NCBI RefSeq assembly: GCF_001751365.1 | Contig: NZ_LJGT01000037.1 | Coordinates: forward strand, 1 to 64,000 | DNA length: 64,000 bases | From: Streptomyces abyssalis | Lineage (GTDB): Bacteria > Actinomycetota > Actinomycetes > Streptomycetales > Streptomycetaceae | Direction of reading: 5' to 3' | In this document: positions 10,505 through 31,804 of the stretch, one piece after another | How positions within the stretch are numbered: position 1 is the stretch's first letter | Layout of the letters: each line of letters begins with the position of its first letter | The notes under the pieces: generated by a model | The model's input: only the letters and a program-made list of their open reading frames with translations | Database searches by the model: none | What the model was told of the DNA's origin: nothing | Translations under genes and position numbers: made by a program

Positions 10505-12513
10505 AGCGCGTAGGGGCGGATCTGGACCAGGCGGAAGTCGCCCTGATCGGTCAGCAGCCACTCGATGTCCAGGGGGTCGTCCACCTCGGGTGCGCTGAAG
10601 TGGGACTGCAGCAGCCGCCCGGTCAGCGACAGGTCCGCGAGCCGGGCGCGTGTGCGGGAGGACAGCCCTTCGTTCCAGGAGCCGAGGGCGACCGTGCGGC
10701 CGCCGCCCTCGACGGTGTTGTAGAGGTACTGCTGCGGCAGGACCGTTCCCTCGACGACCTGTTCGGGCGAACCCGGCGAGCAGTTGAGATAGACGTTGCG
10801 GAAGTCCTCGCGCCGGGTCGGGTCGCAGGTCACCAGGACTCCGCCGAGCGCGGCAGGGACGTACGCCTGGACGATCACGCCCATGTACGTGTCGTCCAGG
10901 GAGATGCGCACCTGGTGGCGCAGCCGCACGCTGCGCGGCGAGAGCAGGGAGGCCCACACCTGCCGTACGGCGTCGGCGAGTTCGCCGGTGCCGCGGACGG
11001 TGGTGACGGAGTCGTAGACACCGGCAGCGGAGAAGCCCGGCAGATCCTCGGCGTTGGAGGACGAGCGCACCACGAGGCGGCCGCCGGCTGCGAGTTCGGC
11101 GGGGGAGGCCTGCGTGATCTCCCGGACGACGGACTCTGGCACGGGGGTCTGCCGGATCAGGTGCTGGATCTGCAGGCAGAGCGAGTCGAGCACGTCGCCG
11201 GCGTCGAGTTCGAGCGCCATCTTCAGCTTGCCTATGCCCTGCTGGAGCGCCGGGGAGGAGGTGAGGAAGCGGTGCTGGAGGGAGAACGGCAACGCGACGC
11301 CCTCGGGGGCCTCGACCGTGTCGGCCACGAAGGAGGCCGCGGCGGCGCGGAGTTCGGCGGCGGAGGGCGCGCGGAGGCCGAGCCGGGCGGCGAGGTGCCC
11401 GTACAGGTTCTCCCGCGGCGGGCGGGGGCGGCCGTGGAACGCGGTGAGATCGGCCGTGCGGCTGTCGAGGACGTGGTGCAGCTCTCCGAGGTTGGCCGCC
11501 TTGGTGCCGTAGCGGTCCCGGTCGGCGCTGCGCAGCCGGTGGAGGGAGAGTACGGGCGCGTCCTCCAGGAGCGGTGGTTCCAGCCGGATGCGCTGCTGGT
11601 GCCAGGCCGGGGCCCGCAGTTCGGGCGGGTGCTCCAGGCGTTCCAGGGTGATCTCGTCCTCGCGGACGCGGTAGCGGACCCAGGCGCCGTCGAGGCCGTC
11701 CTTCTCGACGAGCTGTCCGAGGTCGCGGACGATCGCGTTGGGGATGCCCCATCCGGAGGCGAGGACGTTGGTGTGGGACAGCGGGGTGATGGGCGCGGTG
11801 TTGACGAATCCGGCCACCCGCCGCACGTCGTCCGGCAGGCAGGGCATGGCGACGATGTCCGACCAGCCGAGCCCGCCGGCCGCCGCCTCGTACTCCTCCA
11901 CGGTACGGAAGCAGCGCAACCGGCCGGTGGCTTCCCCTGTGTTGAGCGCCGTCCGGGTCCTGGTGCCGAAGAGTTCGTGGCTGAGGATGCGCGGCACCTG
12001 CTGTTCGCTGACGGCGGCCAGCGCCTCCTCCTGGCTGTGGTTGGCGGGCTTGAGCAGCAGCGGCAGCCGGCCGTCGACGCGCTCCCGTACGAAGGCGTGG
12101 AAGAACTCCAGCAGCTCCGCGTGCATGGTGTCGGCCTCGGTCGTCTCCAGCACCAGGAAGGTGCGCTCGCGGCCGTCGGTGTCCTCGTCGGTGTGCAGGG
12201 AGAGCACGCCGAGCAGGAAGCGGCGCTCGGGGTCCATGTAGACGGAGGCGTTGAACTCGTCGAGGGCGGCGTCGAGTTCGGCGAGGTCCATGCCGAGGAC
12301 GGCGGTGGCGATGTAGTCGACGTGGAAGGGGTGCGCGGCCGTGTCGAGCAGGTGCCAGGTGGCCTCGGCACGGTCGACCACGACCTTGAGGTACGGGTGG
12401 CCGGCCAGGGTGCCCGACAGTGTGCGGAACAGCGGCAGCGAGAGGTTCTCGCCGACCACCGTGCGGTCGGTCGCGGGTTCCGGGGCGCCGGTGGAGAGCG
12501 GGGCGGTGCTCAC
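10501..12513 (-). CDS. PEP-synthase/dikinase-like protein, swivelling His domain before ATP domain
   Basis: A 670-residue protein. The middle segment TPLSHTNVLASGWGIPNAIV resembles the phospho-histidine swivelling domain of PEP-utilising enzymes. The later segments GTKAANLGEL, VRSSSNAEDLPGF and IEWLLT...LVQIRPYAL match the pyruvate-phosphate-dikinase N-terminal ATP-binding domain. The His domain therefore lies in front of the ATP domain, the order seen in glucan water dikinases and opposite to PPDK or PEP synthase. The family splits ATP to AMP and phosphate and passes a phosphate through the histidine to an acceptor. The acceptor here is unknown. It overlaps both neighbours through GTGA. Confidence 0.8.
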   Translation of the reverse strand: MSTAPLSTGAPEPATDRTVVGENLSLPLFRTLSGTLAGHPYLKVVVDRAEATWHLLDTAAHPFHVDYIATAVLGMDLAELDAALDEFNASVYMDPERRFLLGVLSLHTDEDTDGRERTFLVLETTEADTMHAELLEFFHAFVRERVDGRLPLLLKPANHSQEEALAAVSEQQVPRILSHELFGTRTRTALNTGEATGRLRCFRTVEEYEAAAGGLGWSDIVAMPCLPDDVRRVAGFVNTAPITPLSHTNVLASGWGIPNAIVRDLGQLVEKDGLDGAWVRYRVREDEITLERLEHPPELRAPAWHQQRIRLEPPLLEDAPVLSLHRLRSADRDRYGTKAANLGELHHVLDSRTADLTAFHGRPRPPRENLYGHLAARLGLRAPSAAELRAAAASFVADTVEAPEGVALPFSLQHRFLTSSPALQQGIGKLKMALELDAGDVLDSLCLQIQHLIRQTPVPESVVREITQASPAELAAGGRLVVRSSSNAEDLPGFSAAGVYDSVTTVRGTGELADAVRQVWASLLSPRSVRLRHQVRISLDDTYMGVIVQAYVPAALGGVLVTCDPTRREDFRNVYLNCSPGSPEQVVEGTVLPQQYLYNTVEGGGRTVALGSWNEGLSSRTRARLADLSLTGRLLQSHFSAPEVDDPLDIEWLLTDQGDFRLVQIRPYAL

Positions 12514-13967
12514 GCGGCGGCCCCCTCGGGCGCCGGCTGCGGCGCGGCGGGTACGGCGGGCGCGGACTGCGACGCGAGCGGGGCCTGCGGCGCGGGCGGG
12601 GGCTGCGATCCTGGCAGGGCGGGCGGCAGCACGGCGGGCAGGGCGTCCACCAGGGTCGTGAAGTCGCGGAGAACGGTGCGCGCATCGGTGGCGGAGAGCA
12701 GGCACAGCGCCGCCATCGTGTTCGCCCCGCCGACCGGGTCGTAGACCGGCACGGTGCTGCCGTCGTGCAGCGAACTCTCCGGAACCACGGACAGGTTGCT
12801 GCCCTCGCTCAGTGCGACTGCCTCCTTGACCACGGAAGAGTCCCAGACCCTGCGGTCCCGCCAGGCCTCGCCCCGGCCGTCCACCGCGAGGACGACGAGG
12901 GAACCCGCCGCTCCCCGCGCCTGCTCGGGGCCGAGAGTCCGCTCGGGCCAGACGACGGGGCGGCCCAGGAGGTGGTCCACGAGCATGCCGACGAGGTCGA
13001 GCCGGAAGACCTCCTCGATCTGCGGGACGGTCATCGCCCCGCCGAACCGGGCGGCCGTCTCGATGAGCCACATTTTCCCGCCGGCGCCGAGCTTGATCTC
13101 GGTGTGAGTGCCGCAATCGCGCAGGCCGAGGGCGTCCACGGCCTCGCGGGCCAGGGCCACGACGCGCTCCTGGAGGTCCGCGGGGAGCAACGCGGGGGTG
13201 ATGCCGGCCCGTTCGGTGAACGGTTCCACCGTGGGCATCCGGCCGCTGACGCAGACCGGGTGGAAGACGCCGTCGGCCACCACCCCTTCGACGCTGACGT
13301 AGTCGCCCCAGCCGGGCTCGTCGAACCACCCGGCGGTGGTGCCCGTGACGATCTGCTCGACCACGAAGTGCGCGTCCGCCTCGGCGACATGGAGTTCCGC
13401 GAAGCCCAACTGGGCGGATTCGGCCATCACTTCGCGCGAGCGCCGCCAGGCGGCGTCGGCCTCCTGCGGGGACCCGATGATCTGGTGGGCGGTGGAGCCC
13501 GCGCTCCAGGCCGACTTCAGCAGCATGGGGACGGGCAGGCCGGCGGCGGCCTCGTGGAGTTCCGCCTGCGTGGCGACAGGGCGGAACTCCGGCTGCGGCA
13601 GGCCTCGGCTGTGCCAGGTGTCGCGCATCTTCCGCTTGTCGCGGGCGAGCGCCGCGGCGCCTCCCGCCCCGGCGAGGCCGAGCACCTCGCATGCCTCGGC
13701 GACCGCCACGACCGCGTACTCGGAGAAGGTGAGCACCGCATCCGCGCCGACGGCCTCCGCCCGCGAGACGATCTGCGAGACGAGGTCGAACCGCTCCGTC
13801 CCGGCGGGAGTCACGACCGATGCGCAGAGAACCCGTGCGGACGCGTCGACAGCAGACGGAAGCGCGCTGAGCGCCAGCAGGTGCACTTCCGCTCTCGCCG
13901 CCGCCCGGGACAGGACGTGACCGAGCGGCGGACCACCCTTGGCGTGCACCAACAGCACTGTGCTCAC
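12510..13967 (-). CDS. ATP-grasp domain ligase
   Basis: A 485-residue protein. The N-terminal pre-ATP-grasp domain (residues about 1-100) is followed by an ATP-grasp fold: RDKRKMRDTWHSRGLPQPEF, VPMLLKSAWSAGST with its ATP-contacting lysine, and an acidic Mg site near LIETAARFGGAM. The last 45 residues form a Pro/Ala-rich tail. Relatives are carboxylate-amine/thiol ligases that pass through an acyl phosphate, including dipeptide-forming enzymes of secondary metabolism. The GTG at 13965-13967 has GGGAG about ten bases upstream. It is first in the operon with the dikinase-like and MFS genes. Substrates are unknown. Confidence 0.85.
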   Translation of the reverse strand: MSTVLLVHAKGGPPLGHVLSRAAARAEVHLLALSALPSAVDASARVLCASVVTPAGTERFDLVSQIVSRAEAVGADAVLTFSEYAVVAVAEACEVLGLAGAGGAAALARDKRKMRDTWHSRGLPQPEFRPVATQAELHEAAAGLPVPMLLKSAWSAGSTAHQIIGSPQEADAAWRRSREVMAESAQLGFAELHVAEADAHFVVEQIVTGTTAGWFDEPGWGDYVSVEGVVADGVFHPVCVSGRMPTVEPFTERAGITPALLPADLQERVVALAREAVDALGLRDCGTHTEIKLGAGGKMWLIETAARFGGAMTVPQIEEVFRLDLVGMLVDHLLGRPVVWPERTLGPEQARGAAGSLVVLAVDGRGEAWRDRRVWDSSVVKEAVALSEGSNLSVVPESSLHDGSTVPVYDPVGGANTMAALCLLSATDARTVLRDFTTLVDALPAVLPPALPGSQPPPAPQAPLASQSAPAVPAAPQPAPEGAAA

Positions 13968-14403
13968 TGAAGATCGTCTCCCATCGCTCGTCCTGTCGTC
14001 CTCGCCGGTGGCGGCTCGCTCCCGCGGCACGGTCGCCGGCCCGGTCCCGCTCTCGGACCCGGCCGGGCGCATGCCGACGCAACCCGCGTAGATTCACTGC
14101 GGGTAACGGGCCCCGCACACAAGGGAATCAGGCCGTCGGCCGCAGAAGTGCCGCAGCAGGCGGGTGCCGGTCAGGCAAACGCCAAAGTCACCGACATCGC
14201 CGGGTGGTCGTGAAGGCCTGGGCTCGGCCTGGCGCCGGCCGGGACTGACCGGGACTCGCCTGTGATCACATATGGCGCGCCTCACCGGGGATGCCCTCAC
14301 ACTTCGCACTCGGCCGGAAACCGGGCATGGGCGGGACCGCCACGGGATAGGCATCGCGGTGTCGACTCCCGCCGTCCGGCGGGAACATGAACGGAAGGCA
14401 GTC
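13968..14403. promoter_or_regulatory. divergent promoter region: ATP-grasp operon / PAS-LuxR gene
   Basis: About 436 bases lie between the leftward ATP-grasp operon and the rightward PAS-LuxR gene. No gene is supported. The LuxR-type protein is a natural candidate to bind here. No convincing palindrome was picked out by eye. Confidence 0.4.
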
Positions 14404-17063: not shown

Positions 17064-17083
17064 ATCCCCTCGGCCAAGGGGAT
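17064..17083. promoter_or_regulatory. 20-bp near-palindrome in front of the megasynthase
   Basis: ATCCCCT (17064-17070) and AGGGGAT (17077-17083) are perfectly complementary around a CGGCCA core that is itself nearly symmetric (18 of 20 positions pair). It ends about 40 bases before the preferred start at 17125. It could be a repressor operator or a hairpin that masks the translation start. Confidence 0.5.
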
Positions 17084-17124: not shown

Positions 17125-20100
17125 TTGACGACAGGACCGAACGGCGAGACGACGCTCCTGCAGGTGTTGCTGGACGCCGCCGCCGACGCCCCCGGCCAGG
17201 TGCTGGTGCATGTGGGGGGAGACGGCGGGGAACGGGCTGTCACCTTCGCGCAGTTGCGGGACGATGCGCTGCGCGTCGCGGGCGGATACCTGGCATCCGG
17301 CGTGGCACCCGGTACCTGCGTGCCGCTGCTCGCCGACCGTGGCGACGACTTCCAGGCGCTGTTCTGGGGCGCCCTGGCAGCTGGCGTCGTCCCGGTGCCG
17401 CTCGCCCCCGACGTGCGACGGTTGCTGCCGGTGTGGGAACTGCTCGGCCGTCCTCCCGTGGCCGTCGACGGGGCGAGCGAATCCCTGCTGGAGGAACTGT
17501 CCGGCGGTGTACGGGCATTGAGGCTGGCGGAGCTTCGGCAGGGGCATCCGCCGCCTCGGCTGCCGGACGTCTCCTCCGATTCGCTCGCCCTTCTTCAGTT
17601 CTCGTCGGGCAGCACCGGAGCGCCCAAGGGCGTGAGGCTGACACATGGCGCGGTCCTGGCCAATCTGGAGCAGATCCGCCTCGCCGCGGCCATCACGTCC
17701 GGCGACGTGGTGGTGAGCTGGATGCCGTACTTCCACGACATGGGGCTCATCGGCACACATCTGGCCCCGCTCGCCGCACGCATCAAGCAGGTGAGGCTGG
17801 AGCCGTTGTCGTTCGCGAAACGGCCCGCACTGTGGCTGGAGGTCGCGGAACGGCACAGGGCGACGCTGCTGTCGGCGGCGAACTTCGCTCTGGCCCTGGC
17901 CGTGCGGCGCATTCCCGACGAGGGGTTCGCCCGGTTCGACCTGGCCGCGGTGCGGCTGCTGCTGGTGGGCGCGGAGCCGATCGCTCCGGCCGTGTGGCGG
18001 CGGTTCCTGCGCAAGGCGGAACGTTCCGGTCTCGACGCGTCGGCGCCACAGCCGGTGTACGGCCTCGCGGAGGCCACGTTGGCGGTCACGTTCCCGCCGC
18101 CGGACGAGGTGGCTGTGCCGCTGGTCCTCGACCGGGCCGCACTCAGCCGCGGCCGCGCGGTGGACACCGTCCGGGGCCCGTCCGCCGTGGAGCTCATGGA
18201 CGTCGGCGTGCCGGTGCCCGGATGCGAGGTCCGCATCGTGGACGACGCGGACCGCCCGCTGGAGGACGGACGGGTGGGACATCTGCAGGTGCGCGGGCCC
18301 CAGATCGCGCAGGGCTACCACAACGCACCCGAGGCGAGCGCCGGTGCGTTCGCCGGCGGCTGGCTGCGCACAGGCGACCTGGGGTTCCTGCGCGACGGGC
18401 GGCTGTGCGTGACGGGCCGCCACAAGGACGTGCTGTTCGTCGGCGGCCGCACCTTCCACGCCCCCGACCTGGAGGAAGTCGCGGTCGGCACCTCCGGCCT
18501 GCCGTCCTCCGTGGCGGCGGTCGTGGGCTCCACCGACCCTGAGGAGGGCGGGGAGCGAGTCGTCGTCTTCGTGCAGTGGGCGAGACCGCCCCGCGAGGCG
18601 GCCGATGTGCTGGAGCGGGTGGCAGGGCGGGTGCGGCAGGCTCTGGCCCACGACGACGTACGGGTGCTGCCGCTGCCGGCGGGTGCCTTCCCGCGGACGA
18701 CGAGCGGCAAGCTGCGTCGGCGTGCGATGCGCGAGCGCTTCGAAGCGGGGGCCTACGCCGCGGTCGGGGAACGCTGGGCCCGCCGTGCGCCCGGCACCGC
18801 ACCGACGGCGGACTCCCCGGTGGCGCCCGGCGGGTCGGTGACGCCTGCTCAGCCGGTGGCGTCCGACGGGTCGGTGACGGCGCGCTCGCGGGAAGAGGCC
18901 GAGCAGACCGTTGCCGGACTCTGGGCGCGGGTGCTGGGCCGCTCCCGGGACTCCATCGGGCCGCATGACCGGTTCCTGGCCATCGGCGGCTCGTCGCTGA
19001 AAGCCATGGAGGTGCTCGCCGCGCTGGAGGACACCTTCGGCGTCACCGTTCCACCGGCAGCGATGCGCGATCACGACACCGTCGCCGCGCTCACCGAACA
19101 CGTTCTCGCGTCCCGGCGCGGCGGGCCGCCGGAGCCCGCCGCCCGCTCCGTCACCCCGGGCGGGGACGGCGACCCGGCGCCGCTTGCGGTCGTCTCCATG
19201 GCCTGCCGCTTTCCCGGTGCGGACTCTCCGGAGGCCTTCTGGGACCTGCTCGCGGCCGGCCACGACGCCGTCGGCACCGTACCGGCGTCCAGGTGGAGTA
19301 CCCCTCCGGAGGCCGCTGCCCGCTGGGGTGCCTTCCTCGACGATCCGGCGGGCTTCGACGCCGCGTACTTCGGCATCGACGAGCAGGAGGCGACGGCGAC
19401 GGACCCGCAGGCCCGGATCTTCCTGGAGCTGGCCCACGAAGCCCTGGAACGGGCGGGCTATGCGGGCGTACGGCGGTCGGGCCGCCGTATCGGCGTCTTC
19501 GCCGCGACAGGGGAGAGCGGCTACCGCGAACTGCTGGCGCAGGCTCACGGGCCGGGATGCGAGCTGCCTCCCGGCGCGCTGGTCGGCAACCTCCCCAACC
19601 TCGTCGCAGCCCGCGTGGCGCAGAGCCTGGACCTGACCGGACCTGCCCTCGCCGTCGACACCGCCTGTTCTTCCGCCCTGGTGGCACTGCATCTCGCGCG
19701 CCGCAGCCTCCAGTCCGGTGAGTGCGACGTCGCCGTCGTCGGCGGCGTCAACCTGACGCTGGCACCGACCGGCCACCGGCTGCTGGAGGCAGCGGGTGCC
19801 CTGTCGCCGACCGGGCGCTGCCGTCCCTTCAGTGCCGCCGCCGACGGTTTCGTCCCCGGGGAGGGCGGCGCGGCGATCGTCCTGGCCCGGCTGGAAGACG
19901 CGCACCGCGCCGACGACCCGGTCCTGGCCCTGCTGCGCGGCACCGCGGTGAACAACGACGGACGCTCACTGAGCCTCATGGCTCCCAACGCTCTGACACA
20001 GCGGGAGATCATCGTCCAGGCCTACCGGGACGCGGGCGTCGACCCGGGCACGGTGTCCTACATCGAGGCGCACGGCACCGGAACCGCCCTCGGTGACCCC

Positions 20101-23100
20101 GTCGAACTGCGCTCCCTGGCCCATGCGTTCGCACCGCGCAGCGACGGGCAGCCCCGACTGCTCGGCTCGGTGAAGAGCAACCTCGGCCATCTGCTCAACG
20201 CCGCCGCCATGCCGGGCCTGGTGAAGGTGGTCCTCGCCCTGGGCCACCGGCAGTTGCCCGCCTCGCTGCACCATGAGCCGCTCGCCTCCCTCCCCGACGG
20301 CGCGGCCGGCGCCTTCGAGGTGGTCACCGAGCACCGTGAATGGACGGCGTCCGGCCCGCTTGCGGCCGGGATCAACGCGTTCGGATTCGGCGGCACCAAC
20401 GCGCACGCCGTTCTCGAACAGGCGCCCGCGCGCCCGGCGTCCGGCTCGCGCGGGCGGAAAGAGGCCCAGGCCGGGGCCGGTTCGCGGGACGAAGACGGGC
20501 CGTACCTGCTGGCGCTGTCCGCGCGCAGCGCCGCCGCGCTGGGCGCGGCGTCCCGCGACCTCGCGGCTCACCTTCGCACCCATCCGGCCCTCGACGAGCG
20601 CGACGTGTGCGCCACCGTCAGCACTGCCCGCGACCACGGCCGCCACCGCCTGGCGTTGGCGGGCCACGGCCGAGGCGACCTGGCCGAACGCCTGGAGGCA
20701 GGCCCGGCCCCCGTGGTGGCGCGCTCCCGGCCTCGGCTGGTGTTCCTCCTGCCGGGTCAGGGCACCGTGCGTCCCGGGGCGGGCCGGGACCTGTACCGGT
20801 CGGCTCCGGAGTTCCGCCGTGTCATGGAGGAGGCCTCCGAACTCACCGGTCCGGTCGGCGGACGGACTCTCGCCGAGTGGTGCCTGGAGCCCGGCATCCC
20901 GCGAGCCGGCCTTGCCCGTACGGAGGTCGCGCAGCCGCTGCTCGTCGCGTTCGGCGTCGCGCTCGCCCGTCAGCTGAACGCATGGGGCCTGAGCGCCGAT
21001 GCGGTCGCCGGTCACAGCGTGGGCGAGATCAGCGCTGCGTGCGTCGCCGGTTCGCTCACCCTTGCCGAGGCCGTGGGGTTCGCCGCCGAGCGTGGCAGGC
21101 TGATGCGCGACCTGGCCGCACCGGGCGCGATGGCTGCCGTGGCCGGCGGCGAGGAGACCGTCGCCACTGTTCTGGCCGGCTCGGGCGACGCGCTGTGCGT
21201 CGCCGCGGTCAACGCCCCCGGCCAGGTGGTGATCGCCGGGACCGCCGACGCCGTGGACCGGGCCGTCGCACAGCTGGACGCCGAGGGGGTCCCGGCCCGC
21301 GGACTCCACGTCTCACACGGCTTCCACTCGCCGGCGATGCGCCCGGTGGCGGACCCGGTCGCCGCCGCGGCAGCGGCACTCACTCCCCGCCCGTCGTCGG
21401 TGCCGCTGCTGAGCACGCTGAACGCGCGGTGGCAGCCGTCCCTGGACCCGGCGCACTGGCGTGAGCACACCTTGCGACCGGTGCGATTCGCCGACGCCGT
21501 CGAACGCCTGCTGGACGACGGATACGACACCTTCGTCGAGCTCGGCCCCGGCACCACGCTGCCAGGGCCGGTCCGCGCCGTGGCCGCCCAACGCGACCCG
21601 TCTGCCGAGGTGTTCGCCCTGGCGGCCCCGGGCACGGACTCCGACGCGGGACACGCTCTTCTGACGTCCGTCGGGCAACTGTGGGCGCGCGGTGCGGAAG
21701 TGGACCACGCGGCGTTGGCCGGCGGGCGGGCCCGGGTCCCCGTTCCGGCATACCCCTTCCAGCGCCGCCGGTACTGGCCCGGACGCGCACCATCGTCACT
21801 GCTGCACCGCCTCACCTGGCGCGATACGTCCACGACGGCGGGCGGCGGCGCCCCGTCTGCCGTCCGGCTGGCCGGGCCGGACTCGGAACTGGCCCGGGCG
21901 TTCGCACATCGGCTGGAGAACCGGGGCACCGTCGTCCGGCGGGAGTCCGACGCCGACGGGCCGGACGCGTCCCCGCAGATCACCGTGCTGATCACCGGGC
22001 CGGCCGCCGACTGCGAAACCGTCGCGGATCTCGACACCGCGACGGGCGCCGCGCTGTCCACCGTGCCGGGCCTGTGCACGCCGCCGGCCGGAAACGGTGC
22101 GCGGCTCGTGGTCGTCACGGAGGACGTCCACGCCACCGGCACGGCCCCCGAACGGCTGCGCCCCGCCCAGGCCCTGATGACGGGTCTGACGCTTGCGCTC
22201 CCCGAGGAATATCCGGGCCGCACCGCCTACAGCGTCGACCTGTCCTCGTACGACTCCCTGGACGTCCGACTCGACGCCCTCGAACAGGAGTTGCTCCGGC
22301 AGCACGCGCAGGCGAGCCCGGAGGTGGTCGCGTGGCGCGGGGGCCGACGCCTGGCCCGTGTGCCCACGCCGGTGGGGACCGGCGCACCGTCCTCCCCGTC
22401 TCTGCCGCCTTTGCCGCCGCTGCCGCCCGGCGGGACGTATCTGATCACGGGTGGTACGGGCGGGGTCGGCGCCGAGCTTGCCCGCCATCTGGCGGGGCGC
22501 GGCCGGCCGGTGCTGGTGCTGGTCGGGCGTTCTGCCGGCCCGCCGGGACGCCTGATGGCCGAACTCCGGGCAATGGGGGCCATGGTGGAGTACCGCGCGG
22601 CGGACGTGGCGGTCGAAGCCGATGTCGAGGTTCTGGCATCGGAGTTGCCGCCCCTGGACGGGGTGTTCCACGCCGCCGGTGTGCTGCGGCCCGGCACGCT
22701 GCGGGCCAAGTCGCAACAGGAGATGGCCGATGTCCTCGCGGCCAAGGTGCGCGGCAGCCACCTGCTGTCCCGGACGCTGTGGCGACACGGGCACCGTCCG
22801 GCGGTGTGTGTCGCCTTCTCGTCCGTCGCCTCGGTGCTGCCCGGGCTTGCGGGCGCGATCGGCGACTACGCCGCGGCCAACGCCTTTCTCGACTCGTTCG
22901 CCGCCTCCGAGCGAGCTGCCGGCAGGCCCTGGCAGTCGCTGAACTTCGCCGCGTTCGCCTCGACGGGGCTCGCTGCCGGACAGCGGACGCGGACGTCCGT
23001 CGCGGCAGGCGGTCTCCCGCCGCTGACTCCCGGCACGGGGCTCGCGGCGCTGCACGAGGCATGCGGCATCGATGCCGCCCAACTGGTCGTGGCGGAGCTG

Positions 23101-26100
23101 GACGACGCGTCTCGCAGCGCGGCGGCCACGAGCGCGGCGAACTCCGAGGCGGAAGCGAATGCCGGGGCGGAAGCGAACACCGAGGCACCGGTAGGGGCAG
23201 GGACAGCGGCCGTGGCTGGAACCGCCTTGCCCGCGACCACCGTTGGGCGGGCACCCGCATCGCAGCCCACGCCTGCCACGGGCGCGGCCGGTGCCGCCTC
23301 GCACGGGACACACGAGGCGCACGAGACGCCCGAGTACGAGACATACGAGGCGCACGAGGCGCACGAGATCACGGAGGTGGTGAGCCGGCTCCTGGCCGAG
23401 GCCCTGCACCGCGCCCCGGCCGACATCGCCGACGACGAGCCGTTCCTCACCGTGGGACTGGACTCACTCACCGCCGTGGACCTCGTCAGACGGCTGGAGT
23501 CGGAACTGGGCCGTCCCCTGCCGCCCACGCTGTTCTTCGAGTACCGGACGATCGGCGAGCTGGCCGACCATCTGAGCGCCGGTTCCCCCGGTGCGCAGCT
23601 TCCCGCGGGAGAGCGGCGACAACTCGCTGCCGGGAGGGGCACGTTCGACGACCGAGCCGCGCTGCCCCTCACTCCCGTGCAGCTGGCCTTCCACGCGGGC
23701 GGCAGACTGCACCCCGGCGTCACCGCCTACGCCTTCGTGCGTCTGACCGTGAACGGCCCTCTCGACACCGGGTTGCTGGGCCGCGCCTTCGCCGTCCTGG
23801 CAGCCCGCCACCCGATGTTGCGCCTCAGGATCGAACCCGGCAGCGGCTCGCCACCCGTGCAGAACGCGGCACCGGCCGAGCCGGAGGACTCTGTGCCGTC
23901 CTGGTACGAAGTCCGTGACACCGACGGCTCGTTGGCGGATCTGGAGGAAGGGCTGTGCAACCGCCCGTTCGACCTCGCCGTCGAGGCACCCGTGCGCGCG
24001 GTCCTGGTGCGTGAGGGCGCGGAACACGCCCATCTGCTGCTGGTACTGCACCACGCGGCCGCGGACGGATTCAGCCTGAACGTCCTCGGCGAGGAGCTGT
24101 GGTCGGTCTACACCGCCCTTGCCGACGGCCGCTCACCGCAACTGCCGCCGCTGGAGGCCGACTTCGCCGACTACGCGGCCGCCGTCGAGGTCGAGCGTTC
24201 CTCACCGGAGTTCGCCGGGGACCTGCGGTACTGGCGTGAGAAGTTCACCGAGCACCCCGGGCTCCAGGGAGACCTGCCGTACGACGGCGCCCCGGACGCG
24301 CCGCACACCGCGCCGCTCACGGCCCACCAGGTGCCCACCGACCCGGAGTTCACCGACGCATTGCGCAAGTGCGCCGCCGCGCACGGCGTCTCACTCTTCC
24401 ACCTGCTGCTGGCCGCGTATGCACGCTGCCTGTCGCGGTGGAGCGGCCGGCGCGACGTCACGGTCAACGTCGCCCGCGCCCGCCGCGATCTGCGGCTGGC
24501 GGGTATCGGCCGGCTGATCGGTCCGATCGCGGACACCCTGCCGCTCCTCGCCTCGGTCGACGTGGACGAGCCGGTGCCGGACCTTGCTCGGCGGCTGCAC
24601 GGGATCTGGCTGGATGCCGAGCGGCACGCCCGTCCATCGAGCATCGACGTCTCGCGGCTGCCGCCCGCCACGGGCAACAGATCCCGCACGCCATCACGCA
24701 CGCCGACCCCGGCGGGATTCAGTTTCGCCCGCTTCCCCGCCACGGTGGACCCCCGCTGCCCGGTCACGGTGCGCCCGGCCGCGGCACGCAGCGCCTCCGC
24801 CGCCACGCGCCTGGGACTGCTGTGCTGGGAGAGCGACCAGGCTCTGCACTTCTCCTGGAACTTCCCGTCCCGGCTGTTCACCCGTACCACCGTCGAGCGC
24901 CTTGCGCGCGAACACCTCGCGGAACTCGCCGGACTCGTCGCACCTGCTCCACCCGGAGCTCCGGCAGAGACGGAGCAGCAGGAAGTACGGGCGGGGGCGG
25001 TGGCACGGGCGGAGGCAGAGGTACAGACACAGGCAGAAGTACACGCAGAGACACCGGTCCCCGTGCCTGCGACCGAGCGGGGCGGAGTCGTCGAGCGCCT
25101 GTGCGCGCAGTTCCTGGCGGCCCCCGATCACGTGGCCGTCGACACGGGTGGGGCAACCATGACCTACCGGGAACTCGACCGCGCCTCGTCCGTACTCGCG
25201 GACAGGCTGCACGCCCGGGGTGTCGCAGCCGGGGACCTCGTCGGACTGCTCACCGCACCGGGTGCCGACACCGTCGCCGGCGTCGTCGGCATCCTCCGCG
25301 CGGGCGCGGGGTGGGTGCCGATGGATCCCTCCCACCCCGCCGGACGCCTGGCCGACCAGCTCCGGCGGTCCACGGCCCGCACCGTGGTGTGCCACGCCGC
25401 CTCCCGCGCAGTGGCCGACGCACTCGACGACGTGACGAGGATCGCCGTCGACGACCCGTCGCCGGTCCCGGTCCCGGCCCCTTCGGCCGGTCATGTACCC
25501 GACGGTCCCGTACCCGACGGTCCCGTACCCCCCGATCCCGGCGCTCCCGCCTACGTCATCTTCACCTCGGGCTCCACCGGCCGCTCCAAGGCCGTGCCGA
25601 TCACGCACCGGGCGATGGCGAACTACCTGGACTGGGCACTGGACACTTTCGGCTATCGCCGCGGCGACAGGCTCGTCCAGACCGCCTCCGTCTGCTTCGA
25701 CGCCTCCGTGCGGCAGCTGCTGGCGCCGCTGCTGGCCGGGGCCACCGTTCACACCCTGCCCCCGGACCTGGTGCGCGACCCCGAGGCGCTGCTGGAGCGA
25801 CTCGTGAGGGACCGGATCACCGTGTGGAGTTCGGTGCCGACCCTGTGGGAGCGACTGCTGAGAGCCGCCGAGACCCGCGTACGGCGGGGTGCGCCCCCGC
25901 CTGACCTGTCCGCGTTGCGCTGGATCCATGTGGGCGGCGAGGCGCTGTCCCCCGGACATGTGCGTCGCTGGTACGACCTGTTCGGGTCCGGCCACCGCAT
26001 CACCAACCTGTACGGGCCGACCGAGGCCACCATCAACGCGACCTGCCACATCATCGACGCCCGTCCCGCCGACGACGTGCGGCGGCTGCCGATCGGCCGT

Positions 26101-29100
26101 CCCGTCGCCGGCACCGAGGTGGCGGTCCTGTCCCCGGACGGGCGTCGCTGCGGCACCGGTGAACCGGGTGAACTGCTCATCAGCGGAACGGGACTGACGC
26201 CGGGTTACCTCGGCGATCCCGGGCTCACCGCAGCCGCGTTCACCGAGCGGGACGGGAAGCGCTGGTACCGCAGCGGCGACCGGGTCAGCCAACGGCCCGA
26301 CGGCGAGCTGGAGTTCCTGGGCCGCCTCGACGACCAGGTGAAGATCCGTGGCCACCGGGTGGAACCGGGGGAGATCGAGGCCGTACTCCGCACCCACCCC
26401 GGCGTCGTCCAGTCCGCCGTACTGCACCGGGACGGCCGGCTGACCGCGTTCGTGGAGCCCCTGCCCGGTGTTCCCGCGCCCGGTCCCGTACAACTCCGTG
26501 CCCATCTGCGCGAGGCCTTGCCCGACTTCATGGTCCCGGGCCGGTTCCGCTTCCTCGACGCGCTGCCCCTCACCGGCACCGGAAAGATCGACCGCCGGCG
26601 GCTCGATGCCTCGCCCGTCGGCGAGCGGTGCACACGCGCGGCGGACGACGAACCCGACGAGGCCGCCTACGGGACTCCGCCCGCCACACCGACCGAGCGC
26701 ACTCTCGCGCGCATCTGGTCGGAGGTTCTGGGGGGCGTTGCCGTCGGCCGTGAAGACGACTTCTTCGAGCTGGGCGGAGATTCCATCCTCGTCCTGGACG
26801 TGTTCGCACGCCTGGAGAAGGCGAACGGACTGCGACGGCACGACGCCGTGCTGCCCAGACCGACGGTCGTCTACGAACACAGCACCCTCGCCGCCCTCGC
26901 CTCCGCCATCGACGAGACCGTAAGGGACGGTGCCGTCCTCGACGAGGCCGCCAGGGACGCCACCGATGTCACCGATGTCACCGCGCTTGACGCCGGGGAC
27001 CGAAGTGCCCTTCCGTTCCCCCTCACTCCCACCCAGCGGGGCTTTCTGATCGCTGAGGCCGTCGCGCCCGGATCCGGTTCGGCGTGGCTGGCCCGGCTGC
27101 GCCTGCGCGGTCCGCTGCGGCCCGACGTCTTTCAGCGCGCGGTCGATGTCCTGGTCGAGCGTCATCCCATGCTGCGCACGGTGTTTCCCGCCGGCACCCG
27201 GCCCCCGGTGCAGCAGGTACTGCCGCCCGCGCTCCGGCTGCCCGTCGAGTTCGAGACGCGGGCCTCGCCCGGCCTGGTCGACGAACGCGTATCCGCCGAA
27301 CGCCGCCGCCGGTTCGAGCCCTGGGCCTGGCCGCTGCTGCGCCTGCGGGTGATGAGCCTGGGACCCGAGGACCACGTGCTGATCGCCCACGCCCATCACC
27401 TCATCGGCGACGGCTACAGCGTGGCCCTGTTCGGGAGGGAACTGCTCACCGTCCACGACCGGCTCGCCCGTGGCGAACCGGCAGGACTGCCGCCGTTGCG
27501 GGGCACCTTCCGCGACTACGTCGACTTCCTCCAGGAGCCGGCCGTGGACCGGCGTCCGGACCCGGTGAAGGCCGCGCGGACGGCACGTCACCAGCGCCCC
27601 TACCGCCGGCCCGACCTGCGCCAGGGCAAGGCAGGGGCCACCGTCTCCCCGGATGAGGGCTGTGCCGGGTTCAGGTCGGAGGGGTTCACCCTCGATACCG
27701 GGCTGACGGACGCACTGCTGCGGTCCACCACCGTCCGCGCGGCGCCGTACGCCCCTGTCCTGACCGCCTACTACCGGGCTCTGGCCGGCCTCACCGGGCA
27801 GCAGGACCTCGTTCTCGGGCTCGCGGTCACCGGACGCGACCATCCCCTGCCAGATATCAGCCGCCAGTTCGGACCGTTCGCCGCCGTGGTGTCGCTGCGC
27901 CCCGCCGTCGCCGAGCCCGATGCCTCAAGTGGCGCCTCCCGCCCGTCCTTCGGTGACGACCTGCGACGGATCACCGACGAGGTCGTGGCCGCACGGACGC
28001 GCGGCACCGACGGGATGTTGTCCGACGGGCCGCCGATGGCCACTCAGTTCCTCTTCAGCCACCTGGACTTCTCCGCTCTGGGCCCTCCCGCAGGCGAAAC
28101 CCTGACTCTCGACTGGGAGGACCAGGACACGGAGCTCGCCGCGCCGCCGGCGGGGAACGACGTGTTCCTGGCTGCCCGGCCGGTACGGGACGGACTGCGC
28201 CTGACCCTGCGCGCATCAGCCGCCGCACTTGCGCCGGAGACCTTCACCGCGCTCAGCCGCGCCTTGCGGGACGAGGTCGCCCGGGCCGCCGCACCCCATT
28301 CGGCCCCGGGTCCGGGTCCGGCCCCGGGTCCGGGTCCGGGTCCGGCCCCCGCCCCGCCGTCGGCCCTCGCCCCGGCGCCGCCCGGCAGCGCACGCTCGTC
28401 CGTCACGGATGCGGCGCTCGTCGGTTACCTGCCGGCTCCCGGGCAGCTGGCCGCGCTCGCCGGGATGCCGGCGGCGGCCCTCCCCCGCGAGCAGCTGCGT
28501 GCCCTGCTCTTCCCGGACGGAGGTCCACGCCTGCTGGAGGAGATCACCACGCCGCTCGGACGCTCGGGCTTCGTCGCGCTGCCCCTGTTCGCCGACGAGC
28601 TGGCCCCCGGAAGCACGCTCAGCGCCCACACCGCCCGCGCCGTGACCCACGCGGCGTCCCTCGGCGCGCGCTGCGTCTCGATGGCGGGCATGATCCCGGC
28701 GCTCACCGGCTACGGATTCGAGGTCCTGCGCGAGGAGACAGTGACGACTGCGGTCACCACAGGCCATGCGGCCACCGCCGTGTCGGTGGTCGGGACCGTC
28801 CAGAGCGCGCTCGCCGCAACCGGACGAGACCTGGGGGAACTTGCTGTGGCCGTCGTCGGACTCGGCTCGATCGGCACCGCCTCCCTCAACCTGCTGCTCG
28901 ACCGCGCCCCGCGCCCGCCTGCCCGGCTGCTGCTGTGCGACGTCGCCGGCAGCGCGCCCCGTCTGCGTACTCTCGCGGCGGAGTTGCACAGGAGCGGCCT
29001 CGCGCGGTCGGTGGCGACTGCCGAGTCCGGCCAGGTCCTGCCCGCCGCGGTGTACGAAGCCGACCTGATCGTCACCGCCGTCAGCGGCGGCACGGCCGTC

Positions 29101-29532
29101 CTCGACGTGGACCGGCTGCGGGCCGGCTCCGTCGTGGTCGACGACTCCTTCCCGCACTGCTTCGACACCGCTCGCGCCGTTGCCCGGATGCGGCAGCACG
29201 GCGACGTGCTGACCGTCGGCGGCGGACTCCTGGCAGTCGGAGACACCGAGCGGCATGTCGCCGGCGACCTGCCGGCTGCGGCCGCCTCCGGATACGCGGC
29301 GTGGTCCACGGTGCCGGGCACCGTCGCTTCCTGCCGGCTCGAATCCCTGCTCCATGCAGCCGTGTCCGGCCTTCCCCTGGTGCACGGTCTGGTCGACGGC
29401 GCATGCGCACAGGCTTATTGGGACGCGGCTGAGACGGCCGGGGTGAGCGCCGCGCCGCTCCATCTGCTCGGGCACACCGTCGAGGACAGCTCCCTGCGGC
29501 AGTTCCCGCGCAGCCGGCTGAGTCGCGGCTGA
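17125..29532 (+). CDS. hybrid PKS-NRPS: FAAL-ACP-KS-AT-KR-ACP-C-A-PCP-C-acyl-ACP-reductase-like
   Basis: About 4135 residues, cytoplasmic. Domains in order: fatty acyl-AMP ligase (about 8-560; SSGSTGAPKG 160-169); ACP1 (Ser624); KS (Cys848 in DTACSS, both histidines present); AT (Ser1298 in GHSVGE; SHGFHSP suggests malonyl-CoA); KR (TGGTGGVG from 1775, Tyr1915); ACP2 (Ser2114); C1 (HHAAADG 2309-2315); A (about 2650-3160, FTSGSTGRSKAV); PCP (Ser3220); C2 (HHLIGDG 3424-3430); Pro/Gly linker; and a terminal domain (3763-4135) with TTGHAATA and VVGLGSIG like cyanobacterial acyl-ACP reductase. There is no TE, ordinary R or DH. Expected path: fatty acid loading, one malonyl extension, ketoreduction, amidation with one amino acid, release. 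The TTG at 17125 was preferred to the TTG at 17083, which lies in a palindrome. The start is uncertain. Confidence 0.92.
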   Translation: MTTGPNGETTLLQVLLDAAADAPGQVLVHVGGDGGERAVTFAQLRDDALRVAGGYLASGVAPGTCVPLLADRGDDFQALFWGALAAGVVPVPLAPDVRRLLPVWELLGRPPVAVDGASESLLEELSGGVRALRLAELRQGHPPPRLPDVSSDSLALLQFSSGSTGAPKGVRLTHGAVLANLEQIRLAAAITSGDVVVSWMPYFHDMGLIGTHLAPLAARIKQVRLEPLSFAKRPALWLEVAERHRATLLSAANFALALAVRRIPDEGFARFDLAAVRLLLVGAEPIAPAVWRRFLRKAERSGLDASAPQPVYGLAEATLAVTFPPPDEVAVPLVLDRAALSRGRAVDTVRGPSAVELMDVGVPVPGCEVRIVDDADRPLEDGRVGHLQVRGPQIAQGYHNAPEASAGAFAGGWLRTGDLGFLRDGRLCVTGRHKDVLFVGGRTFHAPDLEEVAVGTSGLPSSVAAVVGSTDPEEGGERVVVFVQWARPPREAADVLERVAGRVRQALAHDDVRVLPLPAGAFPRTTSGKLRRRAMRERFEAGAYAAVGERWARRAPGTAPTADSPVAPGGSVTPAQPVASDGSVTARSREEAEQTVAGLWARVLGRSRDSIGPHDRFLAIGGSSLKAMEVLAALEDTFGVTVPPAAMRDHDTVAALTEHVLASRRGGPPEPAARSVTPGGDGDPAPLAVVSMACRFPGADSPEAFWDLLAAGHDAVGTVPASRWSTPPEAAARWGAFLDDPAGFDAAYFGIDEQEATATDPQARIFLELAHEALERAGYAGVRRSGRRIGVFAATGESGYRELLAQAHGPGCELPPGALVGNLPNLVAARVAQSLDLTGPALAVDTACSSALVALHLARRSLQSGECDVAVVGGVNLTLAPTGHRLLEAAGALSPTGRCRPFSAAADGFVPGEGGAAIVLARLEDAHRADDPVLALLRGTAVNNDGRSLSLMAPNALTQREIIVQAYRDAGVDPGTVSYIEAHGTGTALGDPVELRSLAHAFAPRSDGQPRLLGSVKSNLGHLLNAAAMPGLVKVVLALGHRQLPASLHHEPLASLPDGAAGAFEVVTEHREWTASGPLAAGINAFGFGGTNAHAVLEQAPARPASGSRGRKEAQAGAGSRDEDGPYLLALSARSAAALGAASRDLAAHLRTHPALDERDVCATVSTARDHGRHRLALAGHGRGDLAERLEAGPAPVVARSRPRLVFLLPGQGTVRPGAGRDLYRSAPEFRRVMEEASELTGPVGGRTLAEWCLEPGIPRAGLARTEVAQPLLVAFGVALARQLNAWGLSADAVAGHSVGEISAACVAGSLTLAEAVGFAAERGRLMRDLAAPGAMAAVAGGEETVATVLAGSGDALCVAAVNAPGQVVIAGTADAVDRAVAQLDAEGVPARGLHVSHGFHSPAMRPVADPVAAAAAALTPRPSSVPLLSTLNARWQPSLDPAHWREHTLRPVRFADAVERLLDDGYDTFVELGPGTTLPGPVRAVAAQRDPSAEVFALAAPGTDSDAGHALLTSVGQLWARGAEVDHAALAGGRARVPVPAYPFQRRRYWPGRAPSSLLHRLTWRDTSTTAGGGAPSAVRLAGPDSELARAFAHRLENRGTVVRRESDADGPDASPQITVLITGPAADCETVADLDTATGAALSTVPGLCTPPAGNGARLVVVTEDVHATGTAPERLRPAQALMTGLTLALPEEYPGRTAYSVDLSSYDSLDVRLDALEQELLRQHAQASPEVVAWRGGRRLARVPTPVGTGAPSSPSLPPLPPLPPGGTYLITGGTGGVGAELARHLAGRGRPVLVLVGRSAGPPGRLMAELRAMGAMVEYRAADVAVEADVEVLASELPPLDGVFHAAGVLRPGTLRAKSQQEMADVLAAKVRGSHLLSRTLWRHGHRPAVCVAFSSVASVLPGLAGAIGDYAAANAFLDSFAASERAAGRPWQSLNFAAFASTGLAAGQRTRTSVAAGGLPPLTPGTGLAALHEACGIDAAQLVVAELDDASRSAAATSAANSEAEANAGAEANTEAPVGAGTAAVAGTALPATTVGRAPASQPTPATGAAGAASHGTHEAHETPEYETYEAHEAHEITEVVSRLLAEALHRAPADIADDEPFLTVGLDSLTAVDLVRRLESELGRPLPPTLFFEYRTIGELADHLSAGSPGAQLPAGERRQLAAGRGTFDDRAALPLTPVQLAFHAGGRLHPGVTAYAFVRLTVNGPLDTGLLGRAFAVLAARHPMLRLRIEPGSGSPPVQNAAPAEPEDSVPSWYEVRDTDGSLADLEEGLCNRPFDLAVEAPVRAVLVREGAEHAHLLLVLHHAAADGFSLNVLGEELWSVYTALADGRSPQLPPLEADFADYAAAVEVERSSPEFAGDLRYWREKFTEHPGLQGDLPYDGAPDAPHTAPLTAHQVPTDPEFTDALRKCAAAHGVSLFHLLLAAYARCLSRWSGRRDVTVNVARARRDLRLAGIGRLIGPIADTLPLLASVDVDEPVPDLARRLHGIWLDAERHARPSSIDVSRLPPATGNRSRTPSRTPTPAGFSFARFPATVDPRCPVTVRPAAARSASAATRLGLLCWESDQALHFSWNFPSRLFTRTTVERLAREHLAELAGLVAPAPPGAPAETEQQEVRAGAVARAEAEVQTQAEVHAETPVPVPATERGGVVERLCAQFLAAPDHVAVDTGGATMTYRELDRASSVLADRLHARGVAAGDLVGLLTAPGADTVAGVVGILRAGAGWVPMDPSHPAGRLADQLRRSTARTVVCHAASRAVADALDDVTRIAVDDPSPVPVPAPSAGHVPDGPVPDGPVPPDPGAPAYVIFTSGSTGRSKAVPITHRAMANYLDWALDTFGYRRGDRLVQTASVCFDASVRQLLAPLLAGATVHTLPPDLVRDPEALLERLVRDRITVWSSVPTLWERLLRAAETRVRRGAPPPDLSALRWIHVGGEALSPGHVRRWYDLFGSGHRITNLYGPTEATINATCHIIDARPADDVRRLPIGRPVAGTEVAVLSPDGRRCGTGEPGELLISGTGLTPGYLGDPGLTAAAFTERDGKRWYRSGDRVSQRPDGELEFLGRLDDQVKIRGHRVEPGEIEAVLRTHPGVVQSAVLHRDGRLTAFVEPLPGVPAPGPVQLRAHLREALPDFMVPGRFRFLDALPLTGTGKIDRRRLDASPVGERCTRAADDEPDEAAYGTPPATPTERTLARIWSEVLGGVAVGREDDFFELGGDSILVLDVFARLEKANGLRRHDAVLPRPTVVYEHSTLAALASAIDETVRDGAVLDEAARDATDVTDVTALDAGDRSALPFPLTPTQRGFLIAEAVAPGSGSAWLARLRLRGPLRPDVFQRAVDVLVERHPMLRTVFPAGTRPPVQQVLPPALRLPVEFETRASPGLVDERVSAERRRRFEPWAWPLLRLRVMSLGPEDHVLIAHAHHLIGDGYSVALFGRELLTVHDRLARGEPAGLPPLRGTFRDYVDFLQEPAVDRRPDPVKAARTARHQRPYRRPDLRQGKAGATVSPDEGCAGFRSEGFTLDTGLTDALLRSTTVRAAPYAPVLTAYYRALAGLTGQQDLVLGLAVTGRDHPLPDISRQFGPFAAVVSLRPAVAEPDASSGASRPSFGDDLRRITDEVVAARTRGTDGMLSDGPPMATQFLFSHLDFSALGPPAGETLTLDWEDQDTELAAPPAGNDVFLAARPVRDGLRLTLRASAAALAPETFTALSRALRDEVARAAAPHSAPGPGPAPGPGPGPAPAPPSALAPAPPGSARSSVTDAALVGYLPAPGQLAALAGMPAAALPREQLRALLFPDGGPRLLEEITTPLGRSGFVALPLFADELAPGSTLSAHTARAVTHAASLGARCVSMAGMIPALTGYGFEVLREETVTTAVTTGHAATAVSVVGTVQSALAATGRDLGELAVAVVGLGSIGTASLNLLLDRAPRPPARLLLCDVAGSAPRLRTLAAELHRSGLARSVATAESGQVLPAAVYEADLIVTAVSGGTAVLDVDRLRAGSVVVDDSFPHCFDTARAVARMRQHGDVLTVGGGLLAVGDTERHVAGDLPAAAASGYAAWSTVPGTVASCRLESLLHAAVSGLPLVHGLVDGACAQAYWDAAETAGVSAAPLHLLGHTVEDSSLRQFPRSRLSRG
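23311..23370. repeat. low-complexity His/Glu-rich linker before ACP2
   Basis: Repeated GAGGCGCACGAG-like units encode HEAHE, YETYEAHEAHE and similar in the KR-ACP2 linker. They follow an Ala/Thr/Pro-rich stretch. The repeat is in frame and its length may vary. Confidence 0.7.
25495..25531. repeat. 15-bp tandem repeat inside the A domain
   Basis: GTACCCGACGGTCCC occurs twice perfectly, followed by a partial third copy. It encodes VPDGPVPDGPVP directly before the A3 core motif, in a surface loop. Confidence 0.8.
28303..28346. repeat. CCGGGT-type repeat encoding a Pro/Gly linker
   Basis: Repeats of the hexamer CCGGGT, mixed with GCCCCG, encode PGPGPAPGPGPGP. This is the flexible tether between the last C domain and the reductase-like domain. 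Confidence 0.8.
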
Positions 29533-30218: not shown

Positions 30219-30458
30219 GTGGACGGTGAGCGTCCGCAGCCCGCCGGCAGCGGCGGGAACGGCGACGCCGACCGCTGTTGCGCCGACCGCGATCGCGGCG
30301 ATCGCTGCACGAGCACGAGCACGAGCACGAGCACAGGACGGGCCGGCAGCCACAGCCACGGCCACGGCCACGGACGTGCCGTGGCGGTCGCGATGCTGGT
30401 GCTGACCGTGCTCACAGTCGTGATGGCTGCCGCCGCGGCCTGGCAACTCGTCTCCTAG
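30219..30458 (+). CDS. small His-rich protein with one C-terminal membrane helix
   Basis: A 79-residue frame starting at the GTG at 30219, with GAGGGGG five bases upstream. The N-terminal half is hydrophilic and holds three Cys, a TSTSTSTST stretch and a HSHGHGHG stretch. The C-terminal 28 residues form a hydrophobic helix (AVAVAMLVLTVLTVVMAAAAAW). The composition fits a tail-anchored membrane protein, possibly metal-binding through the histidines. No family was recognised. Confidence 0.5.
   Translation: MDGERPQPAGSGGNGDADRCCADRDRGDRCTSTSTSTSTGRAGSHSHGHGHGRAVAVAMLVLTVLTVVMAAAAAWQLVS
30307..30334. repeat. hexamer repeat GCACGA x4.5
   Basis: Four and a half copies of the same hexamer lie inside the small His-rich gene and encode Thr-Ser repeats. 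Such arrays are prone to slippage. Confidence 0.75.
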
Positions 30459-30562
30459 GCCCGCGAATCGGCCGGCCGGGAGCCGCTGTACACCAAGATC
30501 ACGCTGCTCTAATCTTGTGCGCCTGCCCGGTGGTTGACGCTTTGTTCGGGAGGTTGGTTCGG

Positions 30563-31804
30563 GTGGATCCGGAGCAGCAGGACGAGGACGTCCGTACTTC
30601 CGTGTCCCCGTCGGGTGCCGGTGCCACTTCCGTCGTCGTCATCGGCGCGGGTCCCGCCGGGCTCACCCTCGCGAACCTGCTCCACGCCGAGGGCATCGAC
30701 TGCGTGCTTCTGGAGGCGGAGAGCCGGGACTGCATCGAAGCGCTGCCGCGCGCGGGCTTCCTGGAGGAGTGGGCCGTACGTGCGCTGGAGCGGCGCGGCC
30801 TCGCCGGGCCGGGGCTGCTCGCTGCGGAGGCGCAGGGCGACTGCGAGTTCCGGCTGGACGGGACGCGCCACGTCTTCCGCTACGGGGCGCTCTCCGGCCA
30901 GCGCCACATCGTCTACCCGCAGCAGCGGCTGGTGACGGACCTGGTGCGCTCGTACGCCGACGAGGCGGGCGGCGACGTGCGGTTCTCGGCACGGGACGTG
31001 GCCGTGCACGGCATACGCACCGAGCGCCCGTCCGTCTCCTGGACCGACCCGGCGACCGGTGAACAGCGCAGCATCGCCTGCGACTTCGTCGCCGGCTGCG
31101 ACGGCGCGCGCGGCTCGGCCCGCAGCGCGATACCGGAGGGCGGCGTCGAGGTCTTCCGGCACGATCTGGGTGTCGGCTGGCTCGCCCTGCTCGCCGAGGC
31201 GCCGCCGTCGGCCGAGAGGGTCGTGTTCGGGCTCCACACGCAGGGGTTCGCGGCCCACATGGCGCGCGGCCCGCAGGTCACCCGTTACTACCTGGAGTGC
31301 CCGCCGGGCGACTCCACCGCCAACTGGCCGCACGAGCGCGTCTGGAGCGAGCTGCGCACGCGACTCGGCGCCCGCGACGCGGCGCCGCTCAACGAGGGCG
31401 AACTGACCGAGCGCCGCGTGCTCGACATGCACAACTACGTGGTCGAGCCGATGAGTTACGGCCGGCTGCATCTCGCAGGCGACGCGGCGCACCTGGTGGC
31501 ACCCGTAGCCGCCAAGGGCATGAACCTCGCTCTGAACGACGCGCTGCTGCTGGCCGACGCCCTGCGCGCGTACTACCGGGAGGGCGACGAGAGCGGGATC
31601 GAGGGCTACTCGGACGCCTGCCTGCGACGGGTGTGGCAGTACCAGGACTTCAACAACTGGGTCTCGGAACTCGTGCACGGCCCGTCCTCCGGCGACCCTT
31701 TCCGCGCGGGCGTGACGGCCGCCAGGCTCCGGCGAATGACCCGTTCGGAGAAGGCGGGCCGAGCGGTCGCCGGCCTCTACATCGGCAGCGACGCGGACCA
31801 CTGA
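30563..31804 (+). CDS. pobA: 4-hydroxybenzoate 3-monooxygenase-like FAD hydroxylase
   Basis: A 413-residue flavoprotein monooxygenase. The FAD Rossmann motif VVVIGAGPAGLTLANLLHAE is near residue 25. The DG motif is in FVAGCDGARGSAR, and the second FAD site is GDAAHLVAPVAAKGMNLALN. The segment IVYPQQRLVTDLVR is characteristic of PobA. The known reaction is NADPH- and O2-dependent hydroxylation of 4-hydroxybenzoate to protocatechuate. Related hydroxylases with other aromatic acids are possible. The GTG at 30563 has GGGAGG nine bases upstream. No other protocatechuate-pathway genes are nearby. Confidence 0.85.
   Translation: MDPEQQDEDVRTSVSPSGAGATSVVVIGAGPAGLTLANLLHAEGIDCVLLEAESRDCIEALPRAGFLEEWAVRALERRGLAGPGLLAAEAQGDCEFRLDGTRHVFRYGALSGQRHIVYPQQRLVTDLVRSYADEAGGDVRFSARDVAVHGIRTERPSVSWTDPATGEQRSIACDFVAGCDGARGSARSAIPEGGVEVFRHDLGVGWLALLAEAPPSAERVVFGLHTQGFAAHMARGPQVTRYYLECPPGDSTANWPHERVWSELRTRLGARDAAPLNEGELTERRVLDMHNYVVEPMSYGRLHLAGDAAHLVAPVAAKGMNLALNDALLLADALRAYYREGDESGIEGYSDACLRRVWQYQDFNNWVSELVHGPSSGDPFRAGVTAARLRRMTRSEKAGRAVAGLYIGSDADH

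Follow-up and report, generated by a model that had tools for sequence, protein, structure and literature searches.

How an assembly line lets go of its finished chain sets the end of the product, be it an acid, an amide, an aldehyde or an alcohol, and a release domain for which there is no Pfam model is easily overlooked. The window (the whole stretch of Streptomyces abyssalis DNA that was analysed, 64,000 nucleotides in length) raises this question with a single-protein FAAL-PKS-NRPS assembly line whose C-terminal end was originally predicted to resemble the cyanobacterial long-chain acyl-ACP reductase (AAR) and to release an aldehyde or alcohol. The comparisons described below place this end in the TAD/AAR-fold terminal release family in the broad sense, and endings of this kind have already been described in cyanobacterial lipopeptide synthetases and already been crystallised. 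What appears to be new here, as judged from sequence, is a separate clade sister to TAD, its apparently obligate second condensation domain, and a wide one-gene occurrence with a probably conserved product.

Layout of the assembly line

The gene occupies positions 17125-29532 of the forward strand, where ORF translation gives one frame of 4135 residues with no interruption. Its TTG start at 17125 has a GGGGGA/GGGGG-rich stretch resembling a ribosome-binding site just 5' of it, and an in-frame TTG at 17083 is an alternative start. Pfam recognizes two AMP-binding domains, a KS, an AT, a KR, two condensation domains and three carrier domains in the protein, and zero families beyond residue ~3740, i.e., in the last ~370 residues. 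Together with the uninterrupted frame, this bears out the predicted order FAAL-ACP-KS-AT-KR-ACP-C-A-PCP-C followed by an end of ~370 residues.

The line opens with a fatty acyl-AMP ligase (FAAL) loading domain (17152-18759; Pfam AMP-binding, with NCBIfam PRK09192, fatty acyl-AMP ligase, and PRK07768), followed by ACP1 (18892-19119, with the GGSS(L) serine kept), a ketosynthase (19174-20454, with the DTACSS cysteine kept), an acyltransferase (20722-21624) with a GHSVGE and an HGFH motif, the latter of which suggests malonyl specificity, a ketoreductase (22417-22974, with GGTGGVG and S...Y...N present) and ACP2 (23362-23580, a Pfam carrier); no DH or ER domain was found in the 4135-residue protein. 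The remainder comprises the condensation domain C1 (23647-24924, HHAAADG), an adenylation domain (25057-26604), a PCP (26692-26919, LGGDS), a second condensation domain, C2 (26974-28365), lying between the PCP and the release domain, and the C-terminal release domain itself (28396-29529, residues 3758-4135), all on the forward strand. Every active-site motif checked along the protein is conserved in the family. The adenylation code, DARSIVLINK, conforms to a pattern, DARS[IV][VL]L[IV]NK, that holds for all readable members, those of Chloroflexota, Sericytochromatia and Myxococcota among them; it is not known to equal any described code, and its Arg at position 239 may be reminiscent of aminoadipate-activating domains.

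The chemical steps, the cofactor and the product are inferred, those steps up to C1 from the accepted logic of such lines and the release through Cys4070 with NAD(H) from homology. The FAAL would activate a fatty acid and load ACP1, following which KS-AT-KR would add and reduce one malonyl unit to give a 3-hydroxyacyl-ACP2, the product staying at the 3-hydroxy level because a DH is missing, and C1 would couple the 3-hydroxyacyl chain to the single amino acid carried by the A-PCP module. From there the chain would move from the PCP to Cys4070 of the C-terminal domain, with NAD(H) adjacent, and its acyl group would be released by this domain.

Relatives and active site of the release domain

In a phmmer search of solved structures, the last 378 residues match the carmabin TAD (9e4x/9e4s) with an E-value of 1e-36, leaving AAR (6jzq) far behind at ~1e-3, and a 20-member profile of the domain gives 3e-51 for TAD and 8e-4 for AAR. 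The AF2 model made from the 20-member alignment (mean pLDDT 85) retrieved, by Foldseek, chains of the "TAD from Carmabin Biosynthetic Pathway" at ranks 1-10 (E 6e-31, TM 0.87), followed by AAR (E 1e-13, TM 0.68) and then by general Rossmann enzymes with TM <0.4. The PDB entries for TAD (9E4S, 9E4U, 9E4X, 9E50 and 9E56) include NAD-bound and NADH-bound forms as well as a Cys2238-dephospho-CoA disulfide; the abbreviation, which the PDB title does not spell out, is read here as terminal amidation domain. In NCBIfam, the domain is matched by PigE (E 1e-12) and by the AAR model TIGR04058 (E 1e-6), both below cut-off, with scores of 47 against a cut-off of 850 and of 28.1 bits against a curated cut-off of 449.7, respectively. 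These cut-offs, together with the residues considered below, rule out membership of either PigE or AAR.

The original prediction thus stands in part. The end belongs neither to the thioesterases nor to the SDR-type thioester reductases, the latter having no match there in Pfam or NCBIfam, and the quoted motifs sit where they had been placed, genuine AARs reading TTGNTHTA where this domain has TTGHAATA. The proposed likeness to AAR is upheld for the fold, as recovered by Foldseek, and for the catalytic cysteine, but the nearest relative, and the better structural match, is TAD and not AAR. The statement that no described assembly line ends in this way is refuted by the carmabin TAD and by VatR and HcaD, which carry putative terminal-amidation domains (PMC10949194).

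Active-site residues were compared across 99 aligned domains. The cysteine that aligns with Cys294 of AAR, where it is the acyl-enzyme nucleophile (PMC9743570, PMC9594044), is invariant in all 99 sequences and is here Cys4070 of ASCRLES (29332-29334); Cys2238 of the carmabin TAD may be its equivalent. The window's clade and TAD have in common a TTGH motif (here with His3881, 28765-28767), which in AAR is TTGN, and, beyond the GLGSIG dinucleotide-binding loop (28858-28875), an Asp closing the second Rossmann strand (Asp182, which is Asp3939 of the whole protein, 28939-28941), where AAR reads IARD. An Asp at that strand end usually goes with NAD(H), and the nucleotide site of the release domain looks to be of the NAD(H) type, like that of TAD. 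A second cysteine, Cys4012 of DDSFPHCF (29158-29160), belongs to a DDSxPHCF motif that is a hallmark of the window clade and TAD, in place of which AAR has DGGYPKN; it is not strictly required, because a few TAD-like members (e.g., L090 and L066) lack it or its neighbours. Glu316, three residues past the catalytic cysteine (CxxE), is instead common to the window clade and AAR, with TAD having Ser or Ala at this position (CxxS).

Spread of the family and its second condensation domain

A contig scan yielded 185 relatives of the release domain, and 79 loci were retained. The check for the domain at the ends of NRPS genes, which had been put forward with the original prediction, was run on these 79 loci. 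In most of them, many being from MAGs, the domain ends an NRPS or PKS protein; the phyla concerned are Cyanobacteriota, Chloroflexota, Bacillota, Verrucomicrobiota, Pseudomonadota, Planctomycetota, Bacteroidota, Gemmatimonadota and Nitrospirota, so that TAD-like ends are no cyanobacterial oddity. A quick maximum-likelihood tree puts 51 TAD-like domains (support 97) apart from 32 that are of the window's kind, and both apart from AAR; the TAD-like and window clades group together, away from AAR, and the window domain falls outside the TAD-like clade that holds the carmabin TAD. The window clade as a whole has a support of 63, which is weak because three long branches (Chloroflexota, Sericytochromatia and Myxococcota) join it, while its actinobacterial core of 29 has a support of 98.

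The two clades differ in what stands upstream. A carrier directly precedes the domain in 42 of 45 TAD-like members that have another domain upstream in frame (unclear in the other 3), the members outside these 45 being 4 stand-alone proteins and 6 truncated by contig ends, whereas a condensation domain precedes it in 23 of the 23 window-clade members with upstream sequence. C2 is never missing from the window clade and, because of this, probably has a role there; it stands immediately before the release domain and would belong to the release unit. Its motifs (HHLIGDG, LAVTGRDHPLPD and RQFGPF) are C-type, with HHxxxDG kept in nearly all family members. An epimerization domain is ruled out by these motifs, E-type motifs such as EGHGRE, markers of such domains, being absent. 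The AF2 model of C2 has a C-domain fold but, at a pLDDT of 72, is of too low confidence to distinguish subtypes; its closest structures are drawn from ordinary C, E and Cy domains and from terminal C domains, HtmB2-CT being one of the latter.

Several TAD-like loci depart from the usual arrangement. Stand-alone proteins of 430-456 residues, possibly a trans-acting form of the release domain, occur in Hahella, Erwinia, Robbsia and Pantoea (L064:9620-10987, L069:9680-10972, L070:9680-10972 and L077:9644-10981, and in Pantoea stewartii pCN101 L206:14692-15981), where they adjoin a KS-containing gene and NRPS genes; the Pantoea locus also has an FMN monooxygenase of the MupA/Atu3671 type. In a Brocadiia MAG (L060:5213-10984), KS-AT-KR-ACP is followed directly by a TAD-like domain, making this a polyketide line with such an ending, and Oscillatoria PCC 10802 and Laspinema have a genuine AAR as well as TAD-like NRPS ends (L156 and L157 with L053 and L048).

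Within the genus, a strong match (~63-77% identity) is present in 22 of 150 sampled genomes, the window excluded, i.e., in about 15% or ~1 in 7, and in 19 of these 22 it lies inside a frame of ~3,900-4,600 residues. The nearest named relatives are from Streptomyces (L106, L109 and L113), and a wider draw from the class gave mainly the same genus, with two weaker matches elsewhere; named loci beyond Streptomyces are from Nocardioidaceae, Micromonosporaceae, Nonomuraea and Ornithinimicrobium. In two congeners, no more than short fragments of the domain are present (G055:C3:3499535-3500049 and G093:C1:7921789-7922178, 64-79% identity), apparently decayed copies, and two lone relatives of ~35% identity are found in Streptomyces (L207:9812-11008 and G065:C1:7977709-7978698), one of them on a linear plasmid near ACP and KS genes.

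Clustering of the neighbourhoods in 19 genomes and the window revealed no conserved neighbour gene: neighbour families recur in at most 7 of the 20 genomes, and the window is in none of them. In the window, genes for DUF3995 and DUF1801 proteins flank the synthase gene, whereas its S. fungicidicus counterpart (WP_121549379.1) has a WGR-domain gene on one side and a TerB gene on the other. This lack of conserved neighbours suggests that the pathway is probably encoded by one gene. Elsewhere in the window, 12510-14072 on the reverse strand encodes an ATP-grasp protein, possibly a dipeptide ligase, whose similarity to the alanine-anticapsin ligase BacD falls below the cut-off, and 30278-31804 on the forward strand encodes a 4-hydroxybenzoate 3-monooxygenase-like protein with ~115 N-terminal residues outside the family model if the first TTG is taken as its start. 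The occurrence of a distinct clade with a second C domain, on a putative single-gene pathway in ~15% of the sampled species of the genus, is of practical interest, as one gene with one module is unusually simple to express and assay.

Release chemistry and comparison with known endings

A self-contained one-gene lipopeptide pathway, in which a TAD-type Cys/NAD(H) domain releases a derivative of an N-(3-hydroxyacyl) amino acid, has, in our estimate, an even chance of being the correct description of this locus; the conserved catalytic motifs, the nearly invariant adenylation code and the absence of conserved neighbours fit with it. The product predicted most readily is the primary amide of the N-(3-hydroxyacyl) amino acid, on which we would place a little under half of our confidence. 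Terminal amides are found in carmabin A, vatiamides E and F and the dragonamides, and in HcaD (hectoramide B) and VatR (vatiamide) a related domain follows the PCP and is believed to offload by terminal amidation, a mechanism that had not been studied according to the hectoramide B paper (PMC10949194); the C-terminal amide of carmabin A is also described separately (PMC6164609). No paper on the structure or enzymology of TAD was found in the literature searched, and its amide function is itself deduced from product structures. An amidation domain has no evident need to bind NAD(H), and the ~30% identity to TAD, the CxxE motif and the C domain in place of a PCP upstream speak against an amide, as the chemistry may have changed.

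Homology does not separate an amide from an aldehyde, because the cysteine and the nucleotide site are common to TAD and AAR. The release domain might work like AAR, PigE and TamH, with a thioester on Cys4070 receiving hydride from NAD(P)H to give an N-(3-hydroxyacyl)amino aldehyde, or an alcohol after further reduction, an outcome to which we would give a sizeable minority share. The AAR fold, the invariant AAR cysteine, the GxGSIG loop and the NCBIfam matches to PigE and AAR are in line with such a reduction, as is the precedent of the N-terminal domain of PigE and the C-terminal domain of TamH, thioester reductases of the same fold class (PMC8341465, PMC9594044), and it is the AAR-like Glu after the cysteine and the insertion of C2 that make an aldehyde quite possible. 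TAD is closer in sequence, in fold and in most of the diagnostic residues, however, and no aldehyde-processing gene is conserved nearby. The aldehyde or alcohol release of the original prediction is therefore possible but not favoured; the amide appears somewhat more likely, because more of the residues that discriminate TAD from AAR follow TAD, with only Glu316 following AAR.

The strict linkage of C2 to the clade, along with its HHxxxDG motif, bears on two further readings. C2 and the AAR-fold Cys/NAD(H) domain might be obligate partners in a two-domain release unit of undescribed chemistry, in a one-gene pathway whose conserved adenylation code would imply that much of Streptomyces, and a few members of three other lineages, make one and the same lipo-amino acid; we regard this as a tentative and, on the whole, unlikely proposal. 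It is distinctly improbable that C2 itself performs the release, joining the PCP-bound chain to a free amine or alcohol in the manner of terminal C domains elsewhere, with the AAR-fold domain serving at an earlier or later step or as a structural partner only: HtmB2-CT among the nearest structures of the low-confidence model would agree with it, but the release domain is more conserved than C2 (mean identity within the family of 65% vs 55%) and has an invariant catalytic Cys, which disfavours a passive role, and neither an amine donor nor a second carrier is encoded by a linked gene. Reductive amination of an aldehyde to a primary amine, by analogy to the amino acid dehydrogenases that follow AAR in the ranking of folds and share the Rossmann part, is very hard to credit, as their TM of <0.4 reflects the common Rossmann fold only and no amination residues were identified.

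Among known systems, the SDR-type R domains at NRPS ends share the position and a possibly reductive release with the window domain but are of a different family, of which Pfam and NCBIfam detect no match in it. PigE and TamH have in common with it the fold class and carrier- or CoA-bound thioester substrates in natural product pathways, but they are fused to a class III aminotransferase and not to an NRPS module; no aminotransferase domain is found by Pfam in the 4135-residue protein and none is conserved beside the gene. The cyanobacterial AAR (6JZQ/6JZU, TIGR04058) has the same fold and catalytic Cys and differs in its TTGN, in a DGGYPKN without the second Cys, in the absence of the strand-2 Asp and in being a stand-alone enzyme. 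The closest counterparts are the carmabin TAD, VatR and HcaD, with which the window domain shares its position at the C-terminus of an assembly line, the AAR fold, TTGH, the strand-2 Asp, DDSxPHCF and the invariant Cys; a Moorena locus (L041) with 91% identity to the TAD sequence has the order C-A-MT-PCP-TAD, as described for VatR and HcaD. With an identity of only ~26-30%, the window domain forms a separate sister clade and reads CxxE instead of CxxS, and it follows a C domain, whereas TAD stands directly after the PCP; unlike the hosts of TAD, VatR and HcaD, the line that bears it consists of one FAAL-PKS-NRPS protein from Actinomycetota.
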